Positions 3,308 to 60,812 of a stretch of DNA of 64,000 nucleotides are shown here, piece after piece. The notes beneath the pieces are model-generated. The model was given only the letters and a program-made list of their open reading frames with translations. It did not search any database and had not been told where the DNA came from. Location of the stretch: positions 25,435,901-25,499,900 of the forward strand of contig CM028326.1 of assembly GCA_016647705.1 (NCBI GenBank), given 5' to 3'. Each line of letters begins with the position of its first letter. Within the stretch, counting starts at the first letter, position 1. This DNA comes from Eucommia ulmoides (taxonomy: Eukaryota > Streptophyta > Magnoliopsida > Garryales > Eucommiaceae). The position numbers and the translations under genes are program-made.

Positions 3308-3429
3308 GTTGTCCCTCTTTGTCATGCGAGTTCCACTTACTTGACAAAGATAGGAGATCACGTCATTTTGAATGACCCATTTTCTGATTTTTTTCATAGT
3401 GCATTTTTCAATGACAAAACAAATAAAAT

Positions 3430-3745
3430 AAAATGACTCATGACGATACTCATGACGAACAAATATCCGTTTAGAAAATCATTTAGAGTAATGAGAAAAA
3501 AATACTCATGACGATATTCATAACGAACTAGTGTCCGTTTAGAGTAATGAAAAACAGACTCATGACGAACAAATGTCCGTTTAGAAGATTATTTAAAGTA
3601 ATGAAAAAAAGACTCATGACGATACTCATGACGAACAAGTGTCCGTTTAGAGGATCGTTTAGAGTAATAAAAAAATGACTCATGACAATACTCATGATGA
3701 AAAAATGTTCATTTAGAGGATCGTTTAGAGTGATACAAAATAACT
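3430..3745. repeat. Tandem repeat, about 60-bp units, inside the gag-only element
   Basis: About five imperfect units contain ACTCATGACGAACAAGTGTC followed by CGTTTAGA and GTAATGA motifs. The block lies between the internal region and the 3' LTR (in element orientation), where Ogre/Tat-group elements commonly carry satellite-like tandem repeats. Units differ in length by a few bases. Confidence 0.8.
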
Positions 3746-5689
3746 CAAGCCCAATCCCTCTTAGTTGGGGGACAAAAGAAAGTCCAGAGGTATAAAATAT
3801 ACCTCAGCTTGTGGTTAGGCAAAAATAAGAGAGCAAAGATATAAAATGTGTCCCAGCCTTCGGCTGGGGCTGACTCTCAAATGACTGAACCTTTACAGGT
3901 TGCCTACGTACCTTAGCATTACGCTGAGGATTAGGTTTAGCATAGTTCACTAGATGCCCCTTTTAGGGCAAAACGCATACATGAATGCTCATTTAGAGTT
4001 TCTGAGTTTTCAGCAATAAGAGTCTCTAACTCGAGTCGGAAGGTAAGAAGTCCTAATGGTAGGGAAATCCATACTTCCAGTCCCTTTAAGATCCCTGTAA
4101 CTGGACAAACATAAAAATTTAGTCTGAAAAACTTGTTACCTTTGACAACTCGCAATTCCGTTCCCCCCTTCAGCCGTAATCGCTTCGACTGATAGTGCTC
4201 GGATCGAAGTGATATCAAGATATTCTTCCATTTGATTTTAGAAGCTTCTCTTTCCAACTCAGGGCAGGGCATGTCTCGGGTGATTTGATGAAACTTTTTT
4301 TTTTTTTTTTTACTTCCGATATTTCACTTTTCAACTTGTGGGAGGGTCTAACATGTTTCATCAAGGTCTATTTAGCTTGCTCGACTGGATTCTTGTCTTT
4401 TCAAATTTCTAGGTGATTCGATGCTTGGAATTTTAATAATCCTGCTTGCTCTGTGTTTTCTCAAGTCCTGCAAAACTGATTTAGTCCAAAAGAATGGCCA
4501 AATGTCGAAAATTACTAAAACGAGTACCTTCAATGCCCGATATGATTTTTTGTGAGATCTTGAGTTGGATTGCAACGGAATACGGTTCCAATACATTTCC
4601 AGACCACGACCAATGTTTCTTTTCACAAATTCTGATTCCACTCAAATTCATCAAGTTCTGATCCCGAAAAACGTCGTTTGCTCGCCAATTTGGACCGAGG
4701 CGAAAAACTTGAACAAATCAATCTATCCTCTTTCTTTCCTTTCTTCCACATTTGCAGCAGCGCTTCTTACTCGGTTACCCCACTTTTCAATTTTTCTTTC
4801 ACATTTTTTTTTTTTTTTTTTTTTGCTTTTTTTTTTTTTTTTCTTTCATTCATTTTTTTTTTTTTAAATAGATAATCGAACTTACAATGGTTCAAGCGCA
4901 GCTGAGCTTATCAATGAACTTGATCTTCTTTGCGAATTGAGATCCTCATGCAACATTTGAGAGCTTCTTCATTGGGATCACTGGCCTAGAATGATTGTGT
5001 TCCCTTTTCGCCATTGGGTCTGACAGCAGATGAACCAAGATGTTTACACCCGATTTTATCAAATCACTAAAGGACCACCGGAGACGGCTTGATCAGCTTG
5101 CAGCCACATCAAAGTATCGTTAGGGCAATGAAATCCAATCTTGATTTTTGAATCCTCGGATACTTTAGAATTACTGTCAGATTTAGTTAGGGGCCTTTTG
5201 GATCTCACCATCATTTGGCTAAATATAATTTTCCTTTGTTTCTAGTCCAATTAGATCATGGTCTACCTCTATATTAAAACCATATACTCGCATCCTCGCC
5301 CAGTCACATCACATACGACATATGCAGGCGATTTTGGGTACCTGAAAGAGTAAAATTAAAATATTAGACCACAGTTTTGGATAAACAGTATTGCATTATT
5401 GAAATTTGAAAATCCGTTATAGAGAAAATCATTTTTCATCCAAAAGACCAACGGAATGGAAAGGTGAGTACGTGAAGATGTCCCAATTTTATCAAAACAC
5501 CTATCATATTGAAAGTAAGCAAGAACCCCAGTTTTGCAGCCTTTAGATTTTTTCAAATCGAGCCTCAAACAATGACTCGCTCCCATCTCTGCCAACGGTT
5601 TGCTAAAGATCGGTTTCACCACTCCCTGAAAAGGCATGCTCAGGTAACGGATTCTGTTGACAGTTTGGTGCATTGGTCTCAAGTTTTTT

Positions 5690-7430
5690 AGGAAATATGA
5701 TGGCTCATGTCCGTATGAACTCTCGGATCTTGTCCTTTAGCTGAAAGCACTGCTCGGTCGCATGTCCTCTAGTTCTCGAATAGTATTCACATAAAGCATT
5801 CGAAGAAACGGATTTACTCCCAGGCTTGGGTTCGTAGGATGGAAGGGGTGCCAGCATCCCCTGCTTCAAACAACTCTGGTACATCTCGATAATTGGGATT
5901 GGAAGGTCTGGTGGTTCCTCGTCATCATTCCGAAAGTTCCTCCCAGTAGTGCGAGGTAGATAACCTGGGTGGTATTGGGTTCCTGGCTTTAAGGTGTAGT
6001 TAGGAATTTGAGGTGGTAGATTTTGGTTTGGCTTATATGAGGGTATATGGTAAGCGGGTGTTTGGTAGGTTTGAGGGTAGTATTGGGGAGTGTGGTTTTA
6101 GTAAGATGGAGGTGCATTTTGGTAGTAGCAGGGATAACTTTGGGAGTAGGGTTGGTTTCGAGGATAATGTTGGTTTTGGCAATTTTAAGGAGGGTAGTTG
6201 AGATATTGGTTGTTCTGGTTCGGGTAGTTTTGGGGATAAGAATCTTGGGAGTAGTTCTGGTGAAGAGTTTGTTGGGGAGAAATGAGAATGGCTACCTCGT
6301 CTTCGTTTTTCTTTGGTGGAGCTGACCTCTTTATCGGATCAGGCAAGGCCCCTTCAATCATTCCACTTCTTATTCCCTCTTCTATTACCTCGGCTTGTTT
6401 GATCACATCGCCGAATGAAGTCACTGCTATGATCGATAGATCTCGATAGAACAGCGGCATCTGGATTGACTTGAATATCTCCAATTGAGCCTCCTCGCTC
6501 AGCCTAGGGACAACTTTGGCAGCTTCCTTTCTCCAGCGGGCAATGTACTTTCAGAAGCTTTCATCTTTTTTCTTCAGTATCTGGTAAAGGGTATTACGGT
6601 CTGGCACGGCATCTTTATTGTACACATACTGTTCACAGAAGGCCTCTACCAGATCCTCAAATGTCTTAATCTGCGCTAGGTCTAAGGTCATGTACCAACT
6701 GAGAGTCGATCCTTTCAATGATCGCCGGAACATCTTCAGGCAAATGTATTTGTTCCAAGCATGAACCCTCAACTCCTCCTTGTAGATGGTGACATGCCAT
6801 TTTGGGGGGCCAGTACCGTCATACTTCATAAGCTCCGGAACTATGAAGTTTTCCGGATATACCACCCGGGGTGGTGCTGAACAACTCCTTGTACGTCGTT
6901 TTTCTGGATAACTTCTCCATTTTTAGTTCTTCTATGGTTTTCTCCAATTCCTCCATTTTTAGAACCTAGGCCGGAGAGGGTCCATCTTCGTTTTTGTTTG
7001 CGGTTTCGACGGGCGGGGCCGATCGATTAGCATTCAGATCGTTCAGCGGAGCAACGACCCTCTCCGGGTGGATGAAGATCTGGGTTGCAGAAGGGGCCAA
7101 ACCTTTGGGTGGAGTCTGATAGATATGCCCCTGGCTAGGGTATACTGGTGCTTCGTAGGCGAAAAGATGAGGGCCCATCTGGGGTCCATAGTAGACTGAT
7201 CCAGCGAAGTTCGGGCCGGCATGATTCAAATTTGGCATGGAGTTCTCTATCTCGGCACTCGGAGGGTTTCCATTTGGTGATTCAGTCACGGAAGTTCCAC
7301 TAGACGGGGGAACAGGCGCCTCCTGAGGCCGACTAAGTTCGTTAATCCTTTCCCTCAGCATGTCAATGGTTTCCTGCATACGAGCTATCTGGGCCGCACG
7401 GGGAGATTCGGGATCGTTTTCTAATGTCAT
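5690..7430 (-). pseudogene. gag-like region of the LTR element
   Basis: The N-terminal part (7430-6966) has a short coiled-coil-like segment (MQETIDMLRERINELSRP) and a proline-rich stretch. The middle part (6865-6551) has the retrotransposon gag core signature (KYDGTGPPKWH, then STLSWYMTLD and FEDLVEAFCEQY). The part near 5710-5790 has a Cys/His cluster (CEYYSRTRGHATEQC) like the zinc-knuckle-like motif of this gag family. It lies directly downstream of the 5' LTR and primer-site motif, as expected. The region is fossil with several breaks. Confidence 0.8.
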
Positions 7431-8023
7431 TCTGGAGTGAGTCTGGGCCTGGCTGCGAGTAAAGACTAGACTTCGGATAGGAAAAACTGGAATTGCTTTT
7501 CTGGGACCAATTTTTATGTCTCGTCCTGTTCTATAACAAGCCCATTTATTAGTCCACGCGGATGTTAGGTAGCCTTAAAATCCATTCGAGTTCGAAGTTT
7601 TTAATTCCGATAATGACCGATCAAAACAGATAAATATTTGTGAAAATTCTTTCGTTACTTAGTCGGTATTGGAAACTTTGAACTTGTTTAGTTTTTAAGG
7701 CTTCCTAAGACAACATCAATCCATCAAGTATGAACCCCCCCTCCCGCGCATGCGCGCGCGTCTTGTATCATAGAATCCCGAGGGGATAATATGGATACAA
7801 GACGACCGTACTAGTGTCAGAGGGTTTATAACAATATAAGAGCCCGAGAGAGAAGAAAGAAAGAAAAATAAATAAACATCACAACTTATTTACAAAAAAT
7901 TACAAAAAAAAAATAGAAAGAAAAGATAACAAAATAAAATATAACATTCAGACATGAAATAGTAGAACTTATTTGGACATATTAGGCTCGACCCTCTAAA
8001 CAATCCCCAGTGGAGTCGCCAGC

Positions 8024-10103
8024 TAACGCGCCCCGTTTTTCCAAAAGGAAAAAGAATATTAAATAATAAATAAGCTTAAGGAGAGAGGGGTTTTTAAAGC
8101 ATCAATTTTCTCAAAAGATATACTTAGGCCGTTTTAAAAAATAAGGAGTCGTTACCTAGTATTGGATTTAAATGGTGTGCTAGATCACCGAATTTTTAGA
8201 AAACAATTTAAAAGGTCTAAGTAAAAAAAAATGACTCCAAAAATACGGTCAAACCAAATATTTATTTAAAGGCTGAGGGGTTAGTTACGCTCGGGGAAGG
8301 TGTGAGGCAACCCAAGACGTCCGTCCAAAAATAGTACCTTATATTCAATTAAGTCCAATTAGTTTAGTCTGAGTGTTTTATTTTATTTTGAAATAATTCC
8401 CTTCTTATAAAAAAAAAAATTGGTATTTTTCACAAATAAGGTGAGACAAGTTTTTGAATTTTTGGAAATGTTCCCCCGGTATAACTTTTTATCGAATATT
8501 AAGGATTTGACAAAGATGGTCATCGGGGGGGTTTCTGTATGTTTCCGAGAGACTTCTTTAATTTAAATAGACAAACTAAAATAGATTAATGAGATTTGAA
8601 AATATGAATGCAAAACTAACATCTAAATGAGTTTTTTTTTTTTTTTTAATACAAAAGTGACTAAAAAAACTGAATGATTTAATTTAAATATGTTGATACA
8701 AACTGATATGAATACGGAAATCGAATAGGGGACACTACGTGAATTAACGTGATTATGCGTGACAATAATTTAATTACGAAATATAAGTGATACACATGTC
8801 ATGACTAAATTTGAAAAAATAGCGTGGATCCGTAAAAAAAAAAAAAAAAACTATGTATGAAAAATGTAAGTGGTGAAAGTGTCCTAAACATGTTGTCTAA
8901 ATGATACGAGAAATAAACATGCTAAGTGGATGCAAAAAAAATCTACTTTGAGTATGCCTAATTAATTTAAAGAAATCATGTTTTGAAATTCCCTAAAATC
9001 CTATGAATAAGAGAATCGAGGGAGGTTCGAGGAAATAATTTAGTTGAAATTAATCTTTTCGATACTTTAAAAGAAATCCCACGAAAAATTTACCGAGTGA
9101 AGAGATTTTCTAAAACCATTCGTTTCTAAATTCCACTCGAGTTGGGGAATGAAAACGAGGTAATGGAAAACTCTCCCACGATTTATCGAATCGTCGGATT
9201 CACTTTAAGGTTCGTAAGGATTAATTTCTACAAATAAAAGATTTTATAATTTTTTTTATTTTTTTTTAGGGTTTTGATAACAAGAATAAAAATAAATAAC
9301 GAAAACATCATTCACCTAACAATCAGGGATTAGATATAAGCACGAGAAACTCATCCCGACGTTTTTATCGGATCATCGGACGACTTTATCTTTTTGTGTT
9401 TATGAATTTGTAAACAAAACAAAACAAAATAAAATAAATAATGAAAACGTCATTCACCTAACGATCGGGGGTTAAGTTTAAGCACGAGAAATTCACCCCG
9501 ACGTTTTCATCGGATCATCAGACAACAATAAATAAATAAAACTTGCAGAAATTTAAATTACGAAAAGAATAAAGTAAACTGAAAGAAAAATTAAAAATTA
9601 GAAAAACATATATGTTCTAGGTCAAGAATCTTAATACCTGTATTTTTCTCTCTCGCAGACGGCTTCCCGAAAGAGCTTTAAGAATTATTCTTCTAAAGAA
9701 GGTGACTCCTCTCAATTTTTGAATCTCCCCGAAAGGTTTCTCTCTGAATTTTTTTTTTTTTTTTTTTTGTGTGTGTGTCTAAATTATAAGGAGGATGATC
9801 TTATTTATAGGAAAGAGGTGGAGTGAAAAATCCTAATAACCTTTGAAAATCCTAATCCAAATTTGACGAGAAAAAGGAAACAAAACCTACAAAAAAAAAA
9901 AAAAAAAAAAAAAAATAAAGGAAACATAATCTCATTTTTTACAGGAAACTTTTTCTTTTCAATTTTTCATTCTTTTCTTTCTTTTGTCTCTCTTTTCTTT
10001 TTTTCATTTTTCTCTATTTTTTTATTTTTTTAAAATAAAAATAAAATAAATTTTAAAATAAAGTATAATTTTTTTACGGAACGGTCAAAATGTCGTATCT
10101 ACA
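8024..10103 (-). repeat. 5' LTR of the gag-only element
   Basis: Partner of 1242-3307. Its inner edge is followed by the TGGCGACTCC primer-site motif on the minus strand. Its outer edge (10103) abuts the right copy of TCGGT. It lies about 1.07 kb beyond the stop codon of the argininosuccinate synthase gene. Confidence 0.9.
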
Positions 10104-11173: not shown

Positions 11174-14100
11174 TTAAAGCCCCTTCTCAAGCATAGCCCT
11201 AACCCTCATTGGTAGTCCATAGAGCCTAATGAACCCAGCAGCATCAGCCTGATCATAAATATCCCCACTCTCAAAAGAAGATATATCTTGCCTGTACAGA
11301 CTAAACTTACTCTTCCTACCCATCACCGTGACCGAGCCCTTGTACAGCTTCAGCTTCACCGACCCGGTCGTGGTCGCCGTGATCTTCTCCATGAACGCAT
11401 CCATGGACTCCCTGAGCGGATCAAACCACCTTCCTGCATACACTAGCTCAGCGTACTTGAGTGCCAGTGAATCTTTGACCTGTATCATTTCGCGGTCCAG
11501 GGTTAGGGATTCTAGCTCGCGGGCAGCGGTGAAGAGGATGGTCCCGCCAGGAGTCTCGTACACTCCGCGGCTCTTCATCCCAACAAGACGGTTCTCAACC
11601 ATGTCGATGCGTCCAATCCCGTGGAGGCCACCGATCTCATTTAGTGCAGAGAGGAGGGATGCCGGGGAGAGGTCTTTTCCATTGAGCGATACGGGGAGTC
11701 CAGAAACGATCCCGATTTCTATGTATCTGCATTTTGCGTTCTTAGAAAATTCGGAACAGAAATAGAAAAGCCAAATATATATATATATATATATTGTTTT
11801 GTTTCCAAAATTTTATAACAAATTTTAGGGATCAAAATGGAGGGTCTATTAAATCCATCCTTCAACTTAACCGCAAACTGACTGAAATGGGCATAGGTGC
11901 TAGGTTCAAATCATTTGCAACGTTTTCCATCCATTCTAACGAAAAGATAACAGAACTCAAAAAAAGGAACAGACAAACAGAAACAAAAAAAACATATGTT
12001 TCTTGTTTTGTTCCCATATTTTTAGAACAAAGCTGTAAAAGAACTTACTCAGGCTTATCAGGAGCATCTTCAGGGTCAACACTCATCATGTACATATCCT
12101 TACTTGGCTCATTTGCTGGGTCTTCGAGGATGTCCCCCTTCAAACATATACAAGCAAGTTCGAGAGAGAAGTACAGAAGAAAGCAACAATCAGTTCATTT
12201 CCAACAGAAAAGATAAATTCACTGGCAAGATGGAGAGAAAGTGTTATGCAATTTTGGTCTATTTAAGGCACCGATTTAGTGTTCTGTTTCTGTTTTTCTG
12301 TTCTTGCTCCCACAGAACTGTAATAGAAACAAAAATCTAGGAACAAAATAATATTATCTGTTCTGTTCCCAAATTTTTAGAACAAATATCACGGAAAAGA
12401 ACAGAACAGAACAGAAACAGTTTTTTTATTAATACTTTTGGGAACAAAAAAATAAATCTCGGAACAGAAAGAATAAACCAACGCCACCGAAGCTGTAACC
12501 TTGGATCTTGTTTGTTCCCAAAAGAACAAAGATTGAGAAGTCATTTACCTGTAAAAAAAGAAAAAAAGAAAAAAAGAAAAAAAAAACATCCTTCCAGGAA
12601 AGCTATTGTCCTCAAAAGTTGCAGGACGGGTCGTACGGCTTTTTTACCAAAATTACTTCATCATGTTGAATATGAAATTGTGTATATATATATGTGTGAA
12701 AGAATTACCTCATGACTCAGATGCCATAGGTTCCTGTCTCTGCTATAGATGGATTTCTTGGTGACAGGGACAGGCACATTATGTTTCTTAGCATATTCAA
12801 TAGCATCTTCTCTTCCCTTTATATCCCATTCCCTCCATGGAGCCACCACAGCCAGTTCAGGATTCAGAGCAAAGAAAGTGAGCTCAAACCGCACCTATTC
12901 ACATAAAGAAAGTAGCCTCTTCACAAAATAATAAAAAAAAAATAAAGAACAGTATGAGAAAAATAGTATTACAACATACCTGATCATTTCCTTTCCCCGT
13001 GCATCCATGGGAAACAGCATCTGCTCCAACTTCTCTGGCAACATCAACCATGGCCTGTCATTTTCTATCCATATTAGAGACAAACAAACAGGGTACATAA
13101 AGACTCTTCAAGTGTCTGTTTGTTTAGGTGGCGTTTGGTAACCGTTTCTGTTTCCATTCCAGCAGTGGAATGATAATGGGATTCGCGATGGGAATGGAAT
13201 GGGATGGAATGAGAATTTTGTTTCCTTCTTGAGAGTAGAATCGCCTTTGATAACGATAATTTTTTTTTTCTTGTTTTGGGAAGAAAATCACGTTTGGTAA
13301 GGATTTTATCCTAAAACCAATTTTTTTTTTTTTTTTTTTTTTTTTGGCCGGGCGACGGCGACGGCGGACGGCCAGCGGCGTCGGAAGTTGTCAGGTGGCT
13401 GGCGGCGGCGGCGATGCCGGAGGTGACCGGCGACAATCGCCGGAGATGGCCGGGCAGCGATGAACAGTAACTGGAAATGGAATGAGAATTATGAGAAACA
13501 ATTTTTTTTTGTTTCTCATTTCTTAAGAAAAAAATGGGCACAATTCTCAAATGGGAATGAAATGGGAACGAAAACAAAAATTACTAAACGCTATTCCCAA
13601 ACAGAATTCCCAATAATCTAGGAATGGAATGGGAATTTTTGGAATGGAAACAGTTACCAAACGGGGCCTTAGTGTTTCTGTCGACATTTTGTTCCCTAAA
13701 TTTTAGAACAAATTTCTCGGGACAGCACAGACTTGTTCCGAGACATCTGGGAATAGAAACAGAAATCTGGGGACACTAAACAAAAGCCGTGGCTCGCTAT
13801 ATCAAAGGGAAGCCTATTTTACTTCATTAAAAGGACTAATCTGGCCCCATTCCATTATTATTCAATTTTTTTAGACTTGCAATCAACTGATGTTACCAAT
13901 TAGATATATAAAGCCTCCGATATTTAATTAAGATAAAAATAGATATCCATCAAATAAAAACTACACAAGTTTTTAACCCACCAGACAATTCACACAAATT
14001 TCCGTGACTTATGAATAATTATATATAATTCCACCACATGCAGCAAACAAGGCACAAAACCCACAAAAACACGAAATATGTAAGGTTAGATAAGAAATCT

Positions 14101-20054: not shown

Positions 20055-20059
20055 GATTT

Positions 20060-20858
20060 TGTTGGTGCATAAAAGTGGTACACATCTCGAGTATGGTTCA
20101 GTCGGATGACAAGTGGGTCCTCCTGCTGAGGTGGAGTCGTTGGTTGAAAATTCTTCGAGTGAGATGTGTTGGGTCCTGGGGGGACTGACCTGCTATGTCC
20201 AGAGTCCTGCTCCTTAGGGAGTGTACCTGCAGAAGACTCAGACCGGGGTTTATCCCGGTAAAGCTCTTCCGGCGTGATAATCAGTACTCAGAGAGAAAAT
20301 GTACAGAATATAGCAAGTAAATAAATGAACTCGCGCGAAATATAAGTGTATTTCAGCGTACCTCGGGCTTACATAACCCTTGATATATATAAGCGTTGAA
20401 GATGATTAGTCGAGTCTAAACACGGTTAATTAGTTGAAACCCTGTGTTTAGTTGATAATCCGGGGCATTTAGAAGATAATCGTTGGGCTTGGGATTTTGA
20501 GCCCATTTGGCGAAACCCGCGGACCTTTGTTAGACCTGCGGTGGTGAGCTGGTGGAGGAGAATGGAGATCTGTGGAATTCTAGAGAAGAAACAAAGTGAA
20601 AATGAAAGTCGGTCGAGGTGAATGGTTAAGTCCTTGAAACTAATCGCCCAAGGCACAACGCAGAACTCAGAGCAACATGTCCCTGTGGGGCTCCTCGTTC
20701 TTCCCTGGGTACAAATAGGATTCCAAGGCAGAGTCGTAGTCAACGTATGCTCCAACGTGGCGTTGTGGATTCCGAAATGCGTCCCTATCAGCGTCGAGGG
20801 TTGACACGTGACTGAGTCCCAAGTGCTGACTCAGAGGTGCCCAAAAATACCCTCTTCA
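20060..20858 (-). repeat. 3' LTR, facing the synthase promoter
   Basis: It pairs with 24220-25018 at equal length. On the minus strand it contains a TATATATA box near 20382-20390 downstream of its start. Since it points toward the synthase start codon 525 bases away, readout transcription from this LTR is possible but unproven. Confidence 0.85.
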
Positions 20859-23563: not shown

Positions 23564-24219
23564 CATAATGTAGGTGTCTGCCCTTGCCCACAATGGACCC
23601 TCAGGTCGGTTCTTACTGCGTGGCTGGACGCTAAGCCCAAAGATAACCCTGATCGGTTCCTAGCACCAGGTCTTCGTAGAAAAAAGGATTTAATCCAACT
23701 AGGGGACCCTCTCCAGTCTTCCAGACTTGTGGTCACGAGACGGAGGGCAGTCCCCAAGCGCGTACCTCTTCGAAGATGCCACGCAAGCGTCGTGGCCTTG
23801 AGGTCACTCCTCGAGCCCTATAGTCTGGAAAACTAGTCCCCCCTGAACGGGGAGCTACGATAGGCGTACGAGGAGGAGTTGCACATACGACTTGAACTCG
23901 CACATCTGGTGCTTAAGGAGATCAATCCGAGGTACCTCCACAACCCTCGAGGTGTGTCTCACGATCCCAGGTAGCAGAGTGGATGGTCTTACCTAGTCCT
24001 GGGAGGGTAGTTATCCTCGTTGGTGGGAGTTGGGGGTGTGCCCCTAGAGTTTCCGACACAGTCCTGGAGAATTGACCGCTTAATTTGATATCCTCCGCAA
24101 GAAGTTGATCACCCTGTTTGATTTGTCTGACCGGACCTGATGATCATCCAGGCTCAGCCGAGCAGAGAGCAGTGATCAGGGAAAGACTTTTTACACGGTT
24201 CCCATAGACGACGCCAAAT

Positions 24220-25018
24220 TATTGGTGCGTAAAATTGGTACACACCTCGAGTATGGTCCAATTAGATGACGGGTGGGTCCTCCTGTTGTGGTGGAGTCGT
24301 CAATTAAAAATTCTTCGGGTGAGATGTGTTGGGTCCTAGAAAAACTGACCTGCTATGTTCAGAGTTCTGCTCCTTAGGGAGTGTACCTGTAGAAAGCTCA
24401 GATAGGGGTTTATCTCAGTGAAGCCCCTCCGGCGTAGTAATCAATGCTCAGAGAGAAAAGGTACAGAATATAGTAAGTAAACAAATGAACTCATGCGTAA
24501 TGTAAGTGTATTCCAGTATACCTCGGGCTTACATAGCCCCCGATATATATAGGTGTTGGAGATGGTTAGTCGGGTCTAAACACGGTTAATTAGTTGAAAC
24601 CCTATATTTAGCTAATAATCCGGGACGTTTAGGAAATAATCGTTGGGTTTGGGCTTTTGGGCCCATTTGGCGAAGCCCACAAACCTTTGTCAGGCCTGCA
24701 GCGGTGAGCTGGTGGATGAGAGTAGAGATCCGTGGAGTCCTGGAGAAAGAATAAGGTGAAAAAAGGAGCCGGTCGAGGTAAATGGCTGAGTCCCTGAAAC
24801 TAATCGCCTAGGGCACGGCACAGAGCTCAGAGCGGCATGTCCCTGCGGGACTCCTCGCTCCTCCTTGGGTGCAAATGAGATTCCAGGGCGGAGCCGTAGT
24901 CGACGTGTACTCCAGCGTGGTATTGTGGATTCCGGAATGCGTCCCTATCAACATCGAGAGTTGACACGTGGCTGGGTCCCAAGTGTTGACTCAGAGGTGC
25001 CCAAAAATACCCTCATCA
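24220..25018 (-). repeat. 5' LTR of the second LTR element
   Basis: Direct repeat of 20060-20858. Its outer edge CTCATCA ends at 25018 and is followed by the GATTT target duplication. Confidence 0.85.
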
Positions 25019-52400: not shown

Positions 52401-55400
52401 CCGCAAACCGTTATTTTTTATATATAAACAAAAATATAATTAAAATATTAGAAGAAATTATGAAAACCTTAAAATTAACCTAATTAATCCTATAACATAT
52501 ATATACTAGGTAACTAGGGGTCAAACTGTAAATAAATAAATAAAAAAGTGAGAGTAATATATATAATAAAATCTATCTAAAATAGGGGTTACGCAGTTCG
52601 GTTTCACGGTTATTATTCCAAAACCAAAACCAAAATCACTTTGGTTTTCAATTCCGAAACCAAAATCATTTAATCGGTTTCAAAGTTAAACCATTTGGTT
52701 CTGATGTGAGTAAAATCGGGCCTCCTCCACGTGTTAGCCCCTAAGGTCATATTCATGACATCGCCATCACCTCATATCAGCCCGGTGTATAGACAACCCG
52801 GGATGATATCTGCTTGGCAGCTCACGGGAGGTCGGAGCGCCCGAACCGACCTCCTCGCTTGGGCCCGACCTGGCCCGCTACCTTGGCAGGTCGGACGCCG
52901 GCCTCACCATCGACAGTAATGGGCCCAAGGCCCAGGCCCATAGCTCTAATCCGCCGTGCCACCCACGCGTCTGATTGCTTAACGGTAATCCGAGCTTAAG
53001 GTCTTAATCTTATTTACGCTAATCACACTTTCGCCTATAAATAGGAGTCTTCTCTAACACTTTTGACGGACGGAAAAACCATTTTAGAGAGAGACTCTGC
53101 CTCAGATCGGTCAGACAGGTCGAGGTAATAGTAACTCTCCGGCTTATATTTTTCCCGGATTCTTACTCTCACACCGGAGGGGATACGCCGGGAAAAACCC
53201 GACTGTCCTTTGTGTAGGTGACGACGAGGAGCTCGGCTCGGACAACGGCCAGGAGCTAGGAAGGAAACCAAGACCCGGGCTCGGTCTCAGGCCTGATCGG
53301 TCCTCCGACTTGGCTGCGGCACGTGAGGAAACAGGGTCAATACCCCTCTCATCCCTGATCCGAGAGTGTTCGGACCATACTGCTGGTTGGACCAAATTTC
53401 GACACCAACAGTTTGGCACCAGCAAGGTCAACCACAACAGCTCGTTCAGGCCGAGCTACCTAGGTCGCCTGGGGGGCAAAATATTAAACGTTCAACCGCA
53501 GCACATCCACTGATACATACCAAGTGATGAAAGACTGCTGGGGACTACCTAGTCGACCACCACAGCTCGAAAGAGCACGAGCTCTCCTGGTCGACTGAGG
53601 GGGCAAGGGCTGTAGGGATTGCTAGGCACATGAGTCGTGCTCCAGCTGGGCAAATCTTTACCACTTGTAAAAATTAAAATTTCTTTTATGAAAACGTCGG
53701 CAATCATCAAACAAAGCAGACGCAAGAGAAGGAAGAGCAAAAGGATATTATATTCAGATTAGTCAAATTTACAAAAGTGGAAGGGCTACTGCCCACGAAT
53801 TACAAGCCCGCTATGCGCTGGGTCGAACAAAAAGAAAGAAAAGAGATAAAGAAATAATTAAAACAAAGTTGGTTGTTCACGCTGGGCTGGTGGACTGCTC
53901 GGCGGCGGCCTCTTCTGCGGTCTCCTCCTCGCGGGTTCCAGAGGGTCGGCTCGGCTCGGTTTCCGGGATGGCCAATGTAGCGCCCGGTGCGACATCCTGC
54001 TTCGCCTGGGCTTTAGCAATGTCCTCACTGGTTAGCTCGAGGGTCAACTTGGTGTGGTCCACCTTCGGGAACTGTTGGCGCAAGGAGTTGATCGCTCTCT
54101 TGAAATCGAGCCCGATCACACTGACGGTGATGCGGTCCCGGAGCCCTATGAATTCTTCGCTTTGCTTGTACAAGGCGACCGCATTAGCCCGGGCCTCGTC
54201 ACGAGCTTTCTCAAGCTCGCCCGCTTGGTCCCTCTGAAGCTCCTTAAGCTTTGTCCGGGTCACGTGCTCGGCTCGCCTGGCCTCCGCGGCCTTCTTCTCG
54301 GTGGCCTCCTCCGCACGCGTTCGCTCGTTTTCCTTGCGGAGGTGGCTCATCTCGCCGGTCACCCGATCCACCTCTTTCTTGTAATCTTCCAGCAATTGGA
54401 TGTCCTTCTCCCTCGCTTGTACAAGCCCGTTGACCGTTTGGATGGCCTAGTGTAGGCGAGCACCGGCCTCCAGCGAGGCAAACATCGCCTGCGCGGTCAA
54501 CAACAATGTCGTTAAAAACTTAAAAGTTTAAGTACTAAAAACTGACCGGGGAGAATCACTTACCGAGAGCGTGTGCCAATTCATGTCGGCGCAAAGCTTG
54601 GCATCTGACTGTCGGCGAATCTCCTTCTGTCCGCCGGCGGCACCATTCGCATCGTGAACTGCGTCAGCACGCTAGCATTCTGCGTCGCCGGTTGGTCGGA
54701 ACGGAGCCCAGTCCAGATGATTAATTCCCCCGGTTCTTCTCCACCCCCATGTGATTGCCCTTTTTCTTGGGCCGAGGTGGCAGGACGACTTTTCTTATGT
54801 CGGCCAGACGGCGCGTCGAATGTCCCCACCTTTTTCTTCCCCTTGTCTTTTCTGACGAGGGCGGGGTCTTCCTCGGTAACCTCTTTCTGCTCGGCCATTG
54901 CAGCTACCGGGGTCTCGACTCTTCTCAGCATGGGGGCAGGCCTGACCTGACTGGCGGGCACCGTCTCCTCGGTCCTCGGTTTGGCTGGTGTGCTTTGGGC
55001 GGCCTGCCGAGAGTCCACGTCTCTCTTCGCCATATGGGCTATCGCAGCCAGATCCATCACTGAAGAACAAGCAAACATATAAATCCAATCAGCAGGAAGA
55101 AAAATAAATCAAGTTAAACAAAACAACCGGGACGAGCTCAGTGCGCTTACCGTTTTGCGACTCCGGGTTCAAGGTCGGCACCGGTAGGGATGGGTTGCTC
55201 CAAAAGTAGATGTCGTACAGACACAACGTGAGCAGAGGACCGACGTTTGTAAACGGGGTCCGAAGGATCACCTCCTTCTCCTGTAAGATCTCTGCACTGG
55301 GCTGGCGCTTCCTCGTCACTAAATGGAAAAAGAAGCTCGTTAGAACTAAAACCGGGGTGAGGGGAATGAGGTCCGAGCTGAAAAGGCTTACCCAGATCTC

Positions 55401-58400
55401 CCCGTTGCCTCTGGATTGGAAAATCAAACGACAGCTTCTCGTCGGACTCCTACCCGGTACATCCCAAGAAAAAGAACCCCGGCTTCCAGTCTTTAATGGA
55501 GTCTGGGTAGCCCTTGAGGAACTTCCGCCGGGCTGATAGGTAAAACCAGCCCTTCCCGTCGGATATAGCCTTCGCCAAGAACAGTGTGTGAAATAGGTTG
55601 AGGGACGGTGTAATTCCCTCGGCTAGACAAATGATATGGAATGACACGATCATGCGTATACTGTTGGGAGAGAGCTGTGACGGACACAAACCCAAATCCC
55701 AACAGACCTCCCTCACCCAGAGGTGGATGGGAAATCGCAGCCCAACCTGTAGTTGCTGGTCGTAAACCGGGATAAACCCCTCGGGTGGATCACATGCTCG
55801 GTCGTCTGGCCCAGCAGCCCGGACCACCATCGAGCTGGGGATCGCGTAATTATTATAGAGTTTGCGGACCGCTTTCTCCGACAGCTCGGATTCTAGCCCC
55901 CAGACCGGAGTGCCCCAAGGAACAGTACATGACGATCGACGGGAAGTCGTGCTCGCCTGGGGAGGGCGCTTAGACGTAGACAGCTTGGCAGCTGCAGAAC
56001 TGCCGGTAGAGCCCGCCTCGCATCCCATCCCCTGAGACCTACGGGGCAGACCGGCTGCAGGGAGTGCCCCGTTCCGGTCTCACCCTGAGACTCCTCGGAC
56101 GAAGATGTCCACTGAACGGCGAGCTCCTGCTCACCTTCTGACCCAAAGGCCGGAGGAACAATGAGATTTGACTCCGTCGCAAACGAGCTGAGCTCCATCT
56201 AGACGCCCGGGGAGTACGCGGCTATCACGTCTATTAAGGACGCGCTACTCCTCGACCAGTCGGCCTCAGAAGCAGAAGACATGAAGAAGAAGAAGATGAA
56301 AAGAGAAGAAAAGATGACAAGGACAGGAAGAGTACCGTGCTCAAGAGGTCGGTGCCAGCTTTCGCGACAATCTGATGAGGAAATTTGAAGAATGGGTCAC
56401 GTATTTATGGGGGTGCCGAGAAGTCGAAACGTCGCGTTGCATCGAACAGCTCGCAGAATTTCGATTCCCATGACTCAGCCACGTGTCGGGCATCTGGACG
56501 GACTAACAGTCTGGCTTCCTAGAGAAGCCAAGAGACGCGTTAGACACGTCGGTCTAGCTTCCAGGGTACGCCATTGGACATGCCTGGCTGGACTGCGTCA
56601 CCCCGGTTCCACCGACCGCTTTCTCCTTCAGCTCGGCTACTTGCTCCGTGGGGCCTGACCGCTAAACCCTCAGCGTCCCATGTTCCATTCCCACGCTAAG
56701 GCTTGGGGGGCAACTGATGTGGGTAAAATCGAGCCTCCTCCACGTGTTATCCCCTAAGGTCAGATTCGCGACATCGCCATCACCATCGCCTCATATCAGC
56801 TCGGTGTATAAACAGCCCGGGATGATATCTGCTCGGCAGCTTGCGGGAGGTCGAAGCGCCAGAACCGACCTCCTCGCTTGGGCCCGACCTGGCCCGCTAC
56901 CTCGACAGGTCGGACGCCGGCCTCACCATCGACAATAATGGGCTCAAGGCCTAGACCCATAGCTCTAATCTGCCGTGCCACCCACGCTTCTGACTACTTA
57001 CTGGTAATCCGAGATTAAGGTCTTAATCTTATTTACGCTAATCACACTTTCGCCTATAAATAGGAGTCTTCTCTAACACTTTTGACGGACGGAAAAACTA
57101 TTTTAGAGAGAGAGACTCTGCCTCAGATTGGTCAGACAGGTTGAGATAACAGTAATTCTTCGGCTTATATTTCTCCCCGGATTCTTACTCTCATACCGGA
57201 GGGGACACGCGGGGAAAAACCCGACTGTCCTTTGTGCAGGTGACGACGAGGAGCTCGGCCCAGACAATGGCCAAGAGCTAGGAAGGAAATCAAGACCCGG
57301 GCTCAGTCTCAGGCCTGATAGGTCCTCCGACCCGGCTGCGGCACGTGAGGAAATAGGGTCCATACCCCTCTCACCCCTGATCCGAGTCCGAGAGTGTTCA
57401 GACCATACTGCTGGTTAGACCAAATTCCGACACCAACAGGTTCGGTTTGGTTCGCTTACACGACGGTTTGGGGTGAATTTCCATCCCTAATCAAAACTTT
57501 TCCAACCCTATATGAAAATCGTTTATAAGAACAACAATTAAGATATTATCAAACACACTATTGCTTTTAAGTTTTAGGTTGCGTTTGGGTAAGGGATTTG
57601 AAAAGATTTGTGAAATGATGGGATTTTAAAATCTCATTTTCACAAATATCTTATTTGGATAACTATTTGAGCTGAAATAATTGATCGTGTAATTTACAAT
57701 TCACTTGTTTGGATAGGTAAAGTATTTGTAAACTGAATTTACAAGTACATTGAACAAATCAACTTCAAGAGACAAACTCCATCTATTTTTGAACAGTTCA
57801 AGATCATTATCATGCAACCTTCATGCGAAAATGCAACCATCATTGAATTAAAGCAATAAATATTAGATTTTTCGATTTCGCCAAACATCCTTTTCGATTC
57901 ATTGATCGAATTGCATTTTCCATATACCGTTATTAGACAAAAAATCATGGAATCATCAGAAATTAACCCTAATTTGAGAATAAGGGAAAGGATTTGACAT
58001 GGCTTCACACGAACGTTTGCGATCGAATGATTGCAAACGATTAACCCAAGAAACTGAATCAACGATTGCGAACAATGGCTTCACACGAAATTAACCCAAG
58101 AAACTGAATCAACGATTGCGAATGAACGACTTGTTAACCCTAATTGTTCCAAGAAACTGAATCTTGCAAACGAACGAGTGCGAACGATTAGGGTTTGTTC
58201 AATTGCGAATGAAAGATTACGAACCCTAATCGCAATTGAATCCTTACCCAGGAAGGATTGCGAACCCTTATCGAATGAATCAAACGAACTTGTCGTCGCG
58301 AGAAGGAGCAGCAACGAAGAAGATCGTTGCGAGAAGGATCGACAGTCGTCTCGAGAACTACTGCGTTAAAGGAGTTCGTCGCTGTCGGTGGTTGCGAAGG

Positions 58401-60812
58401 GAAGGAGGGCTCGTCGGTCGTCGCGAAAGGTCTGTCGTCGTGACGAGAAGAAGGAGATGAGCGCTCAGGTCAATCGTGATGGAGAAATTATGAAATCGTC
58501 TCTTGGATGGAATTGGCAAATGACACCCCTCTCAAAAGTATTTCCAAATTCCTCCTTTCACCCATAAAAAGATTTCACAAATCCCTCCCTCTTAAATCCA
58601 AACAAGGGATTTGCCAAATGAGGATTTCAAAATCCTCTCTCCAAATGAAATTCCTCCTACAAATCCTCTACCCAAACACAAACTTGAGGAAAAGTAGTTT
58701 ATTGTTCAATTTAACTTTTTTTATTATAAAAAGTTATAAAAAAAGTGTTAAAGAGCCTTAATCATCTGAATCTATTGCTTAACATCTTTTACTCTGTGTA
58801 GGTACCTCATACAACTTTCCTTCTGGCACATGTTTGCTTCTTATTTTACCATGTTACGTCAAATATAACACTTCGTAGACTAAATCATCTTGTGTCTGCC
58901 TTGCCCGGGAAAATGCAATTCACTATTAAGGCGGCCTGGATTCTGGCTCTTTCTTATTTCATCGCATACCTGGAGACATTAGCTATTGCAAATGTAAGTG
59001 GTAAAAGATGGTCTATTTCTTGAGTAAACATGTAGTTTGATGATTGATGTTACCATAATTTTAAGCTGAATAATGGAGTTAGTACCAAGAGGTGTTAGTC
59101 TGGTTGGCAAGAGGAGGTACCTATTTCCTTATGAACCAGGGTTTGACTTTCCTGGGAGCACTCCAAGAATTAAATCTTGAATTTAATCCTGAATGCATCA
59201 GGCCGATGTGGGGAGTGCACCCTTAAGATCGCCCGGTGAGGTGATTAGTCGAGGTATGCGTAAGCTGGCCCGGATACTCACCTTATGGTAAAAAAAAATG
59301 GAGTTAGCATTTGGCAAAAGAATGCTTATAACGGTGTTTTTTTTTTCTTCCTTCTGAACCTATGCAGTTCCCCTATTATGAATTTGTGGACCGAGGTTCC
59401 ATGTACAAAGTTGGGTCGTTGTTCTATGCAATTTATTTCATCATAAGCTTCCCGATGTTTCTCAGGTAAGAAAGTGGCCTTATGTTTTCTGTTTTTGACA
59501 AGCAAATGCCTTGTCTTGTCAAACATGGCAGTTCTTTATTCCTGAATGGGATTATTTATTTCCCGTTTGCTTGTCTAAATTGTCTCTTTTTTTTTAATAG
59601 TAATCTTATCTTCGATGAGTTGATTTGTTTCTTTCTCCATTAATAAATGATGGTAAGCGTTTGGTAAGGGCAGAGGCAAGAGAGGACCAAAATTAAAAGC
59701 AATTACTTTAATTTAGGTACTTTTTGAAATCAGAAGATTATTTTACCAAAAACGTATGTAAAACCGAAAAATCAAAAGCGTGTTTGATATTGTAGATATA
59801 ATATCGTAGTATTATCCCGCTAAATGATCTCTTAATTCCAAAAATGTTCATAAATGAAAAAAAGGGACAGAGATGTTCTAGTCCATCAATCTTCATCTAT
59901 CTTATATAGTATAAAAATTTCAAAAATAGCAAACACCTATTTTTCACTTTTCGAAAAATAATGTTTTTACTTTATTATTTTTAAAGGTACTTTTTTCAAG
60001 TGCAAAACAAATACTACTTTTCAAATTAAATACATTTTTTGCTTAAAAAAAATACTTAAAAAAAATGTTATGAAACAGTGCCTAAGTTAAATTTTTAGGT
60101 ATATCTTACTCCGATTATAGTTGGAAAAGGCATTTAAACTGGCTCATTTGAGTATTTTAAAAATTTCCTAAAGACCACCTATAACATAGCCTAATTCTTG
60201 AATTGGAGAACAACCAAACAGACCCTAAGAACTGTGTTTTCCTATGTTTTAGAGTAGAGCATAACATGTCCTGATTCAGGTGAGGCCTGGCCAATAAATG
60301 AGTTTAGTGGAATTTTACTATAAACCGAAAGTCGAGATTGATAGCCAATATAGGTTATGTAATTATGAAATATAGTACGAGACGCTGTCTTGCCGAATTG
60401 TTTGACTTGGGAACACCTTAAATAGAGTTTGATTGCTTGGAATTGGAGCCTTGAAATTGGAATTGAAAATGAATACGCTTGTAAAAAGCTATAAATTTTA
60501 CACATTTTTGTTCCGAATTCCAACTCCATGGATTCAATTCCGTTTGGAGCTGCAACTTTTTAGACTTTCTTTGTTCTTATGGTTAAGTCGATTCTCAGTG
60601 AATATTCACTTTTAATTTTCAGGGTTGATGAAAAATCGAGTGATGCATGGGACTTACCCAGAGTAGCGATTGATGCGCTGGGGGCTGCAATGCTTGTCAC
60701 CATATTACTCGACTGGTGGCGCATTTTTTTGGGTCCCATTGTTCCTCACCTTGACAAACAACAATGCCTTGAACCAGGCTTGCCTTGGTTTTCTGGGCAC
60801 TCCAGAGATTAA
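49415..60812 (+). CDS. CPI1: Cycloeucalenol cycloisomerase
   Basis: This ER-membrane enzyme opens the cyclopropane ring of cycloeucalenol to give obtusifoliol, a plant-specific sterol step. Coding exons: 49415-49421, 49531-49673, 50330-50413, 51371-51412, 51891-52001, 58802-58993, 59368-59465, 60623-60812; total 867 nt in frame, 288 aa, against about 280 in Arabidopsis. Conserved blocks include WLASNPSKRWGELFFLLYTP, ELEYLLLGLVSAVPSFLIP, GNYFWTHYFFTVLGASYTFP, LALSYFIAYLETLAIANFPY and DALGAAMLVTILLDWW, ending GLPWFSGHSRD. Five to six hydrophobic segments are visible. The start codon exon contributes only 7 nt (MGG) before a GTGAGT donor; frame and family length support it. Intron 4 uses a GC donor (AAG|GCAAGT). 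Intron 5 is 6.8 kb because of nested elements. No stop or frameshift is seen. Confidence 0.95.
50597..51250. mobile_element. Tourist-like MITE interrupted by a TRIM
   Basis: The left end GGGCCCGTTTGGTTGTCC and right end ACAACCAGATAGGCCC form imperfect TIRs in CPI1 intron 3. The left arm matches the family of 14259-14520. About half its length is the inserted TRIM at 50811-51158. Confidence 0.6.
50811..51158 (+). mobile_element. TRIM (terminal-repeat retrotransposon in miniature)
   Basis: Two LTRs of about 115 bp (50811-50925 and 51046-51158) start TGTTGA and share TTGTGTTA...TGATCCT, AGGGCAAT and GTCTTTTGAGAGTGA. Directly after the first is TGGTATCAGAGTCAG, the initiator-Met tRNA primer site common to Copia elements and TRIMs, and GATGGGGCA precedes the second. 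The interior is only about 120 bp and codes for nothing. In CPI1 intron 3, sense orientation. Confidence 0.85.
51498..51619. mobile_element. Short palindromic Tourist-like MITE
   Basis: A 122-bp near-palindrome (GGAATTGGAATTAGAAATGA against TCATTTCTAATTCCAATTCC) is flanked by TTA on both sides (51495-51497, 51620-51622). In CPI1 intron 4. A relative lies at about 60425-60558. Confidence 0.75.
52220..52701. repeat. Left half of an older MITE-like repeat cut by the LTR element
   Basis: AAACCAAAACCAAT and CGGTTT words run up to the LTR insertion at 52702 and resume right after it at 57439 (GGTTCGGTTTGGTTCGC ... CCATCCCTAA). The right end resembles hAT MITE ends (TAGGGATGG on minus). The left terminus is not clear. 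Confidence 0.4.
52702..53410 (+). repeat. 5' LTR of the intronic element
   Basis: 709-bp partner of 56715-57438. It contains CGCCTATAAATAGGAGTC, a likely TATA box, and is followed by the primer-site region. Confidence 0.88.
53877..54395 (-). CDS. Antisense coiled-coil ORF in the intronic LTR element
   Basis: A 172-codon open frame. Its first 110 residues are highly charged with heptad-like spacing (YKKEVDRVTGEMSHLRKE, then EKARDEARANAVALYKQSEE), predicted coiled coil; the tail is Glu/Ala/Ser/Pro-rich. In plant proteins with the PF04195 domain a C-terminal coiled coil of this kind is usual, so this is probably a downstream exon of the same antisense unit. It lies opposite to the LTR direction. 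Expression is unknown; treat as part of an old element. Confidence 0.55.
   Translation of the reverse strand: MLEDYKKEVDRVTGEMSHLRKENERTRAEEATEKKAAEARRAEHVTRTKLKELQRDQAGELEKARDEARANAVALYKQSEEFIGLRDRITVSVIGLDFKRAINSLRQQFPKVDHTKLTLELTSEDIAKAQAKQDVAPGATLAIPETEPSRPSGTREEETAEEAAAEQSTSPA
54581..55078 (-). CDS. Antisense linker-like ORF in the intronic LTR element
   Basis: A 165-codon frame rich in Pro, Lys, Glu and Ser (basic stretch VRKDKGKKKVGTFDAPSGRH). It has no named domain. Its place between the PF04195-like frame and the coiled-coil frame, and its low complexity, suit a disordered linker exon of the same unit. Confidence 0.4.
   Translation of the reverse strand: MFACSSVMDLAAIAHMAKRDVDSRQAAQSTPAKPRTEETVPASQVRPAPMLRRVETPVAAMAEQKEVTEEDPALVRKDKGKKKVGTFDAPSGRHKKSRPATSAQEKGQSHGGGEEPGELIIWTGLRSDQPATQNASVLTQFTMRMVPPADRRRFADSQMPSFAPT
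55450..56028 (-). CDS. Antisense ORF with 'putative gypsy type transposon' domain (PF04195-like)
   Basis: A 192-codon frame. After a Ser/Thr-rich lead it reads AIPSSMVVRAAGPDDRACDP, then GFIPVYDQQLQVGLRFPIHL, WVREVCWDLGLCPSQLSPNS, and ISDGKGWFYLSARRKFLKGY. This succession (VVR..G..DR...PP.G....Y...L..GLRFP......E......P.QL.PN, then KGWFYFS) is the hallmark of the plant family annotated as putative gypsy type transposon / Transposase_28. Its function is not known. It lies antisense within an LTR element lacking gag and pol. Related protein frames continue on the minus strand to about 53877. Confidence 0.7.
   Translation of the reverse strand: MGCEAGSTGSSAAAKLSTSKRPPQASTTSRRSSCTVPWGTPVWGLESELSEKAVRKLYNNYAIPSSMVVRAAGPDDRACDPPEGFIPVYDQQLQVGLRFPIHLWVREVCWDLGLCPSQLSPNSIRMIVSFHIICLAEGITPSLNLFHTLFLAKAISDGKGWFYLSARRKFLKGYPDSIKDWKPGFFFLGCTG
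56715..57438 (+). repeat. 3' LTR of the intronic element
   Basis: 724-bp partner of 52702-53410, preceded by the GGGGGGCAAC purine tract and followed by the GGTTC target duplication. Confidence 0.88.
57577..58683. mobile_element. TIR element carrying a PPR gene fragment
   Basis: Left end GGTTGCGTTTGGGTAAGGGA; right end CCTCTACCCAAACACAAAC. TTA precedes the left end (57574-57576), TTG follows the right end. Its left arm matches the right arm of the element at 45457-46374. The inside holds a PPR-like segment (57745-57960) and a block of CGAACGATTGCGAA-type words with a roughly 60-bp partial duplication (58030-58170). It lies in CPI1 intron 5 beside the LTR element. Confidence 0.65.
57745..57975 (-). 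pseudogene. PPR gene fragment inside the TIR element
   Basis: The minus-strand frame reads LILKLGLISDDSMIFCLITV, then YGKCNSINESKRMFGEIEKS and IYCFNSMMVAFSHEG. The YGKCNSINESKRMF...NSMMVAFSHEG pattern is two successive PPR motifs. It is short and lies wholly between the TIRs at 57577 and 58683, which suggests capture by the element. It is not the same PPR sequence as the fragment at 188-412. Confidence 0.65.
59083..59296 (+). mobile_element. tRNA-derived SINE in CPI1 intron 6
   Basis: An 11-bp duplication AATGGAGTTAG flanks it (59072-59082 and 59297-59307). The head has TTAGTCTGGTTGGCAAGAGG (A-box-like) and AACCAGGGTTTGACTTTCC (B-box-like) about 40 bases on; the tail is an A-run. About 214 bp, sense to CPI1, ending some 60 bases before exon 7. 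Confidence 0.85.
60425..60558. mobile_element. Short palindromic MITE, relative of 51498-51619
   Basis: GCTTGGAATTGGAGCCTTGA at the left and CCATGGATTCAATTCCGTTT at the right are inverted and resemble the arms at 51498-51619. It lies in CPI1 intron 7, about 65 bases before exon 8. Flank duplication not resolved. Confidence 0.5.

Follow-up and report, generated by a model that had tools for sequence, protein, structure and literature searches.

An exon-intron model for the antisense accessory gene of a decayed Retand-type retrotransposon in Eucommia ulmoides

In a 64,000-nucleotide stretch of the Eucommia ulmoides genome (assembly GCA_016647705.1, contig CM028326.1, positions 25,435,901 to 25,499,900 of the forward strand; here, the window), a first-pass annotation made from the sequence alone had noticed a long terminal repeat (LTR) element with three large frames antisense to its LTRs, and had raised the possibility that such an LTR shell spreads a gene without gag or pol. 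Comparison with relatives across the genome points elsewhere. We are confident that the element (52702-57438) is an old LTR retrotransposon copy of the Retand type (Tat, Ty3/gypsy) with an internal deletion, and that it carries the antisense accessory gene of its lineage. Apart from the frame with the PF04195 signature, the other large antisense frames (54581-55108 and 53877-54446) are real and lie on the minus strand, and together with 55089-55622 they are exon pieces of a single gene with four exons. As an element, the copy is dead and otherwise unremarkable, and its value lies in the gene that it carries.

Structure and lineage of the element

Both LTRs start with TGATG and end with CAACA, and the 5-bp target-site duplication (TSD) described in the first-pass annotation is present on either side as GGTTC. 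The LTR pair is 92.4% identical (Kimura two-parameter distance, K2P, 0.082), with 45 transitions and 9 transversions over 709 columns. At 1.3e-8 substitutions per site per year, the element would be about 3 million years old, a figure that is rough because 45 of the 54 LTR differences are transitions. The parts of the element are as follows.

52697..52701, no strand: left target-site duplication, GGTTC (sequence)
52702..53410, plus: 5′ LTR (direct-repeat comparison; genome-wide LTR matches)
53411..53420, plus: remnant of the primer-binding region, its first approximately 10 nt, at the deletion junction (junction comparison with relatives)
53415..56714, plus: POL-3′LTR region, the sole internal part retained (similarity to locus L020)
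56699..56714, plus: polypurine-tract-like stretch preceding the 3′ LTR (sequence)
56715..57438, plus: 3′ LTR (direct repeats; alignment with relatives)
57439..57443, no strand: right target-site duplication, GGTTC (sequence)

A search of the genome (947 Mb in 391 contigs) recovered LTR matches at 40 places, including the window's own two (the best 40 of 1362 candidates), and internal-region matches at 40 places, including the window (the best 40 of 147 candidates); 20 stretches around these matches were taken for comparison. One relative, the C10 copy (loci L019 and L020), is about 11.2 kb long, and the window at 53415-57438, 3′ LTR included, is 84% identical to L020 at 1562-5512. The Pfam domains Retrotrans_gag, RVT_1, and RT_RNaseH_2 were matched in L019; RVT_3, Integrase_H2C2, and rve in L019, L020, and L036; and RVT_1 also in L037 and L035. 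The plus-strand domain order in the relatives is reverse transcriptase (RT), RNase H (RH), a second RNase H (aRH), and integrase (INT), with RT_RNaseH_2 at 4483-4854 of L019 and RVT_3 plus Integrase_H2C2 at 5366-6001. Inside the window element, in agreement with the first-pass description, no gag or pol family gave a Pfam match in the eight frames scanned (five minus, three plus), and tblastn with the gag and pol pieces of the relatives likewise found no match. Its recognizable coding content is confined to the minus strand, where the frame 55450-56079 matches PF04195, the TRP28 domain (E = 2.1e-9; 37.9 bits against a cutoff of 26.2), bearing out the signature suspected earlier.

The Retand literature describes an accessory gene that is normally antisense and located between pol and the 3′ LTR (PMC11963269, PMC6317226), aRH between RH and INT as a trait of Retand and Ogre elements (PMC6317226), and a POL-3′LTR region of 2.9 to 6.6 kb in Retand (PMC11963269). 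Of the Retand clusters that were recently active, 97% are reported to contain antisense TRP28 open reading frames (ORFs), which have no known function (PMC11963269), and pfam04195 is found in 23% of Retand elements (PMC6317226). The window copy has LTRs with a 5-bp TSD, an antisense TRP28 domain, and a long POL-3′LTR region with antisense ORFs (about 4.3 kb separates the end of the INT piece from the 3′ LTR in L020, and 3.3 kb is retained in the window). In the relatives, aRH lies between RH and INT, a region that is deleted from the window copy. Domain order and TRP28 together suggest a Retand placement for the relatives, in line with the Tat-lineage affinity already proposed, and a backward-facing accessory gene is normal for this lineage.

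Relative to the C10 copy, the window copy lacks about 6.6 kb comprising most of the primer-binding site (PBS), gag, and pol; in C10, the 5′ LTR is followed by about 6.6 kb before the homolog of window position 53415 is reached. A 141-nt junction query matched end to end at the window only, and the other 39 scored matches (from the best 40 of 794 candidates) end at or before window position 53421. With the junction present at 1 of the 40 scored places, the loss of gag and pol appears to be private to the window copy, and the copies sharing one deletion that would mark a family like the large retrotransposon derivatives (LARDs) were not seen among these matches. Only about 10 nt of the PBS are retained after the 5′ LTR. 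With most of the PBS deleted, further movement is unlikely, and the copy is probably no longer mobilizable.

The junction carries a microhomology of 3 to 5 nt, the length of which depends on the relative compared (GGC to GGCAC). On its 5′ side, the relatives read GGCAC in C9, GGCAT in C10, and GGCGC in C11 and C17, and on its 3′ side, they read GGCAC in C10 and GGTAC in the second C9 copy; a fixed 5-nt microhomology was dropped because the relatives vary on both sides. As the origin of the deletion, we lean slightly toward DNA repair after insertion over template switching during reverse transcription, given the short microhomology and a PBS that is truncated although a replicating template would need it. 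However, an identical junction could result if the minus strand jumped late onto the first bases of the PBS, and the data do not tell the two apart.

The antisense gene and its coding constraint

Alignment with the relatives resolves the antisense content of the element into the following gene model.

56402..56409, minus: predicted TATA-box position; TATAAATA in all eight aligned relatives, with a single mismatch in the window
55392..56282, minus: exon 1, with the ATG at 56282-56280 and the TRP28/PF04195 domain; in-frame stops and a frame change in the window
55319..55391, minus: intron 1, phase 1; GT in 9 of 9 copies, AG in 7 of 9
55151..55318, minus: exon 2 (alignment with relatives)
55060..55150, minus: intron 2, phase 1; GT in 8 of 9 copies, AG in 9 of 9
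54564..55059, minus: exon 3, with a lysine-rich stretch resembling a nuclear localization signal and common to a second family; frameshift near its end in the window
54489..54563, minus: intron 3, phase 0 in the frame of the family; GT in 11 of 11 copies, AG in 9 of 11
53877..54488, minus: exon 4, coiled-coil-like, its C-terminal block conserved; early in-frame stop in the window

The splice sites were scored in alignments of 9, 9, and 11 copies for introns 1, 2, and 3, respectively, and a GT donor is present in 28 and an AG acceptor in 25 of the 29 copy-by-intron cells. Among the copies, the introns are 72 to 86, 91 to 94, and 75 to 79 nt long, and their phases in the frame of the family, read from the alignments with the window's own exon 3 being frameshifted, are 1, 1, and 0. 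Given these conserved introns and the continuity of exon 1, we rejected the reading of the antisense frames as separate genes. The span in the first-pass annotation, 53877 to 56281, starts at the stop codon, but the ATG and the probable TATA box fall outside it. The ATG and TRP28 share one frame in six of eight relatives, in one of which this frame is free of stops, and TATAAATA lies 126 to 147 nt upstream of the ATG in all eight. On our own reading, the basic stretch of exon 3 resembles a nuclear localization signal and exon 4 is coiled-coil-like; the Pfam matches of the latter (ADIP, spectrin, and others) all fall below the cutoff and were taken to reflect a generic coiled coil. In the window copy, the gene is a dead pseudogene: in-frame stops break exon 1 and exon 4, the frame also changes inside exon 1, and exon 3 has a frameshift close to its end.

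Besides the window copy, 15 further copies each contain two or more antisense exon pieces, a recurrence that makes the antisense frames more than a product of chance. Further, pol sequence (at least INT) lies on the opposite strand in 14 of the 14 readable relatives that carry the antisense gene, a count that includes the C5 copy, judged from its upstream part, and excludes L018 (antisense exons, with a flank too short to judge) and three old, divergent TRP28 loci. The LTR-match loci L021, L022, L023/L024, and L025, which are without an antisense exon, were left out of this count; some of them contain gag or pol pieces. L003 by itself shows nothing, and L034, L047, and L048, which cover more of this copy, contain both the antisense exons and gag to INT. 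In a comparison drawn from the best 150 of 2445 PF04195 candidates and the best 150 of 15785 INT candidates, all 16 PF04195-INT pairs within 8 kb are on opposite strands, with INT 2.9 to 3.7 kb downstream of TRP28, against a mean of 0.37 and a maximum of 3 pairs in 200 random shifts; the remaining PF04195 matches have no partner among the 150 INT matches scored, which is uninformative about their loci.

Loci L039 to L042 form a second Retand-like family, with 88 to 92% identity between copies and long open TRP28 frames. Over 157 residues, its TRP28 exon and the window frame are 48% identical, and the corresponding introns occur in the same phases, with GT and AG in all four copies. Exons 3 and 4 are homologous between the two families (E = 3e-6 and 7e-5, respectively), which have in common the basic, nuclear localization signal-like stretch and the C-terminal block. 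In these four long-frame copies, tblastn places RT-RH-aRH-INT, in that order, on the strand opposite TRP28 in every case, and rve was matched in L040. Some INT matches approximately 75% identical to L020 sit in open frames of more than 1100 aa, and some such elements may thus have been active more recently.

The pooled ratios of nonsynonymous to synonymous divergence (dN/dS) and the transversions at codon positions 1/2/3 are as follows for the window family, with RT and aRH-INT of the same copies as controls.

TRP28 part: dN/dS 0.27; transversions 0.037/0.020/0.051
Exon 1 tail: dN/dS 0.15; transversions 0.032/0.000/0.056
Exon 2: dN/dS 0.24; transversions 0.028/0.023/0.051
Exon 3 part: dN/dS 0.46; transversions 0.032/0.040/0.069
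Exon 4 part: dN/dS 0.34; transversions 0.047/0.042/0.045
Introns 1, 2, and 3: transversions 0.049, 0.024, and 0.037
Control, RT: transversions 0.019/0.016/0.035
Control, aRH-INT: transversions 0.034/0.018/0.030

For the L039 family, the corresponding transversions are 0.009/0.003/0.012 in exon 1, 0.027/0.008/0.025 in exon 2, 0.021/0.006/0.071 in exon 3, and 0.015/0.021/0.053 in exon 4, with 0.044, 0.015, and 0.085 in the introns. On these values, the constraint on the antisense protein is comparable with that on reverse transcriptase, exon 4 of the window family excepted.

Several observations weigh against reading the antisense frames as a conserved gene of a Retand lineage. The constraint values are pooled over nonindependent pairs, and the divergence of the introns (0.14 to 0.19) is below the dS of the exons (about 0.42 to 0.47), which suggests that methylation-driven C-to-T changes at third positions, which are GC-rich, probably inflate the latter. 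Plain dN/dS was judged to be biased on this account, and transversions were therefore computed by codon position; this check is the weaker one, and in exon 4 of the window family positions 2 and 3 are nearly equal (0.042 versus 0.045), whereas they do differ in exon 4 of the L039 family (0.021 versus 0.053). The upstream part of exon 1 is out of frame in two of eight relatives, and in six of eight its ATG frame is interrupted by one or more stops, which indicates that most copies have decayed; individual copies have also lost some of their splice sites (5 of the 58 site cells). Antisense splicing and promoter use are predictions. The protease region of the C10 copy gave no Pfam match, and its label rests on position. 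For TRP28, whose Pfam name (Transposase_28) suggests a transposase, a PDB profile search returned no match at E values up to 1, and a single-sequence AlphaFold2 model of the protein has a mean predicted local distance difference test score of 39 and is unusable. Finally, the three old TRP28 loci (L043/L045 on C8, L044/L046/L049 on C15, and L016/L050/L051 on C8) rank 1, 2, and 8 among the best 150 of the 2445 PF04195 candidates, and within the flanks examined they have no recognizable pol or LTR pair; these flanks contain a weak gag-like match (L045, E = 5e-4) and short direct repeats downstream. These loci might be pol-less TRP28 elements, decayed Retand copies with a longer POL-3′LTR region, or genes that do not belong to an element.

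It is nevertheless very unlikely that the antisense frames are noncoding, whether as frames kept open by the composition of a GC-rich region or as sources of antisense RNA feeding silencing. Open frames are present on both strands of the element stretch, and a double-stranded RNA role has been proposed for antisense transcripts (PMC7264820), but such an origin would not account for the match to the curated Pfam family PF04195, the intron positions and phases common to both families, or the excess of transversions at position 3 over position 2 in five of five exon pieces, marginal as it is in exon 4. An RNA role alongside that of the protein is possible in addition.

Copies without pol and other features of the window

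The search for other copies recovered the same antisense frames that the first-pass annotation had described, and the readable copies that bear them also carry pol. Accordingly, the frames are a native part of the family, and what appears to be a one-off is the absence of gag and pol from the window copy. The alternative, that a pol-less LTR shell with the antisense TRP28 gene is itself mobile as a nonautonomous family parasitizing autonomous relatives, could draw on the window copy's two LTRs, TSD, polypurine-tract-like stretch, and antisense gene as sole content; on the smaller divergence between its LTRs (K2P, 0.082, against 0.133 to 0.143 in the five full-length relatives for which it was measured); on Retand clusters without gag, gag and AP, or RH and INT (PMC11963269); and on the three old TRP28 loci, but it is scarcely credible in view of the deleted PBS and the broken gene, and the junction, present at 1 of the 40 scored places, and the pol of 14 of 14 readable relatives led us to reject it for the window family.

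Outside the element, an LTR-like pair at 1244-3307 and 8026-10103, about 6.78 kb apart and 84 to 93% identical by piece, encloses the minus-strand frames 6518-6847, which is weakly gag-like (E = 2e-5), and 6966-7574 (202 aa), and is probably a separate minus-strand retrotransposon. A direct repeat at 20059-20358 and 24219-24518 (84% identical; spacing, 4160) is possibly a further LTR pair. Adjoining the element, the minus-strand frame 57739-58080 has a subthreshold match to the pentatricopeptide repeat (E = 3e-4; 21.2 bits against 25). The long minus-strand frame 11174-11812 has a tentative resemblance to an argininosuccinate synthase exon. Downstream of the element, the plus-strand stretch 58802-58993 is open, and Pfam gave no match above the cutoff on the downstream host stretch; the name CPI1 for the host gene, and the intron number 5 given in the first-pass annotation, are putative. 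If the element affects the host gene, it would do so as an LTR insertion in an intron and not through the protein.

Comparison with known systems and a proposed role

Silene Retand, rice RIRE2, maize Grande, and Cinful (PMC11963269, PMC6317226, PMC7264820) likewise possess LTRs, a 5-bp TSD, a long POL-3′LTR region, and an antisense PF04195 ORF, and they have aRH between RH and INT, as do the window's relatives; the window copy differs from them in being without most of the PBS, gag, and pol. As cited in PMC7264820, the gene of Gomez-Orte 2013 is also an accessory gene that lies antisense, after pol and before the 3′ LTR, and it has an internal upstream promoter; gene23 of maize Grande encodes a nuclear protein and has its own promoter (PMC7264820). 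HBZ of human T-cell leukemia virus type 1 (HTLV-1), cited in PMC11963269 and PMC7264820, is similarly antisense, nuclear, and a proposed regulator, with no sequence relation claimed; the citing papers place the antisense promoter of HTLV in the 3′ LTR, whereas the TATA motif of the window family is inside the internal region. An intron in a Tat-clade element is known from Ogre of pea and Medicago (cited in PMC6317226), but that intron belongs to the sense transcript, with an effect on the polyprotein, whereas here three introns are in the antisense gene. The Retand papers describe the antisense content as ORFs, in contrast to the three-intron gene seen here; we found no mention of an intron structure for the antisense gene in the searched passages of PMC11963269, PMC7264820, and PMC6317226, with Gomez-Orte 2013, Steinbauerova 2011, and Kejnovsky 2006 being outside this scope. 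The split-gene structure may be the new part, the element itself being of a known type. The study of spliced antisense transcripts has been recommended (PMC7264820).

Full-length members of the family combine plus-strand gag-pol with one four-exon antisense accessory gene between INT and the 3′ LTR, and this gene has its own conserved TATA motif. A living copy of this gene would be transcribed by RNA polymerase II from the integrated element, opposite to the genomic RNA, and then spliced. The introns would survive retrotransposition because the sense genomic RNA offers the spliceosome only their reverse complement, and, with introns antisense to the genomic RNA, the protein could be made only from an integrated copy. 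The product is probably a nuclear accessory or regulatory protein, for which we envisage a dimerizing, nucleic-acid-binding factor that would act in trans in the element's own cycle, its likeliest job being the regulation of element transcription or the handling of the preintegration complex. DNA binding and a regulatory role have been suggested for antisense TRP28 products (PMC11963269). Generalizing across families, we tentatively propose, with a little less than even confidence, that the Retand antisense gene is a true split gene with its own TATA promoter, four exons, and three introns of fixed phase, kept only because it is antisense, and that its protein, never made from packaged RNA, would have a postintegration, nuclear, trans-acting job.

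Annotation as single ORFs would split or miss such an antisense gene. The conserved exon-intron structure and the promoter motif together provide a complete, testable gene model and suggest why the gene is antisense: a postintegration job in element transcription or silencing would, if true, explain its placement on the strand opposite gag and pol.

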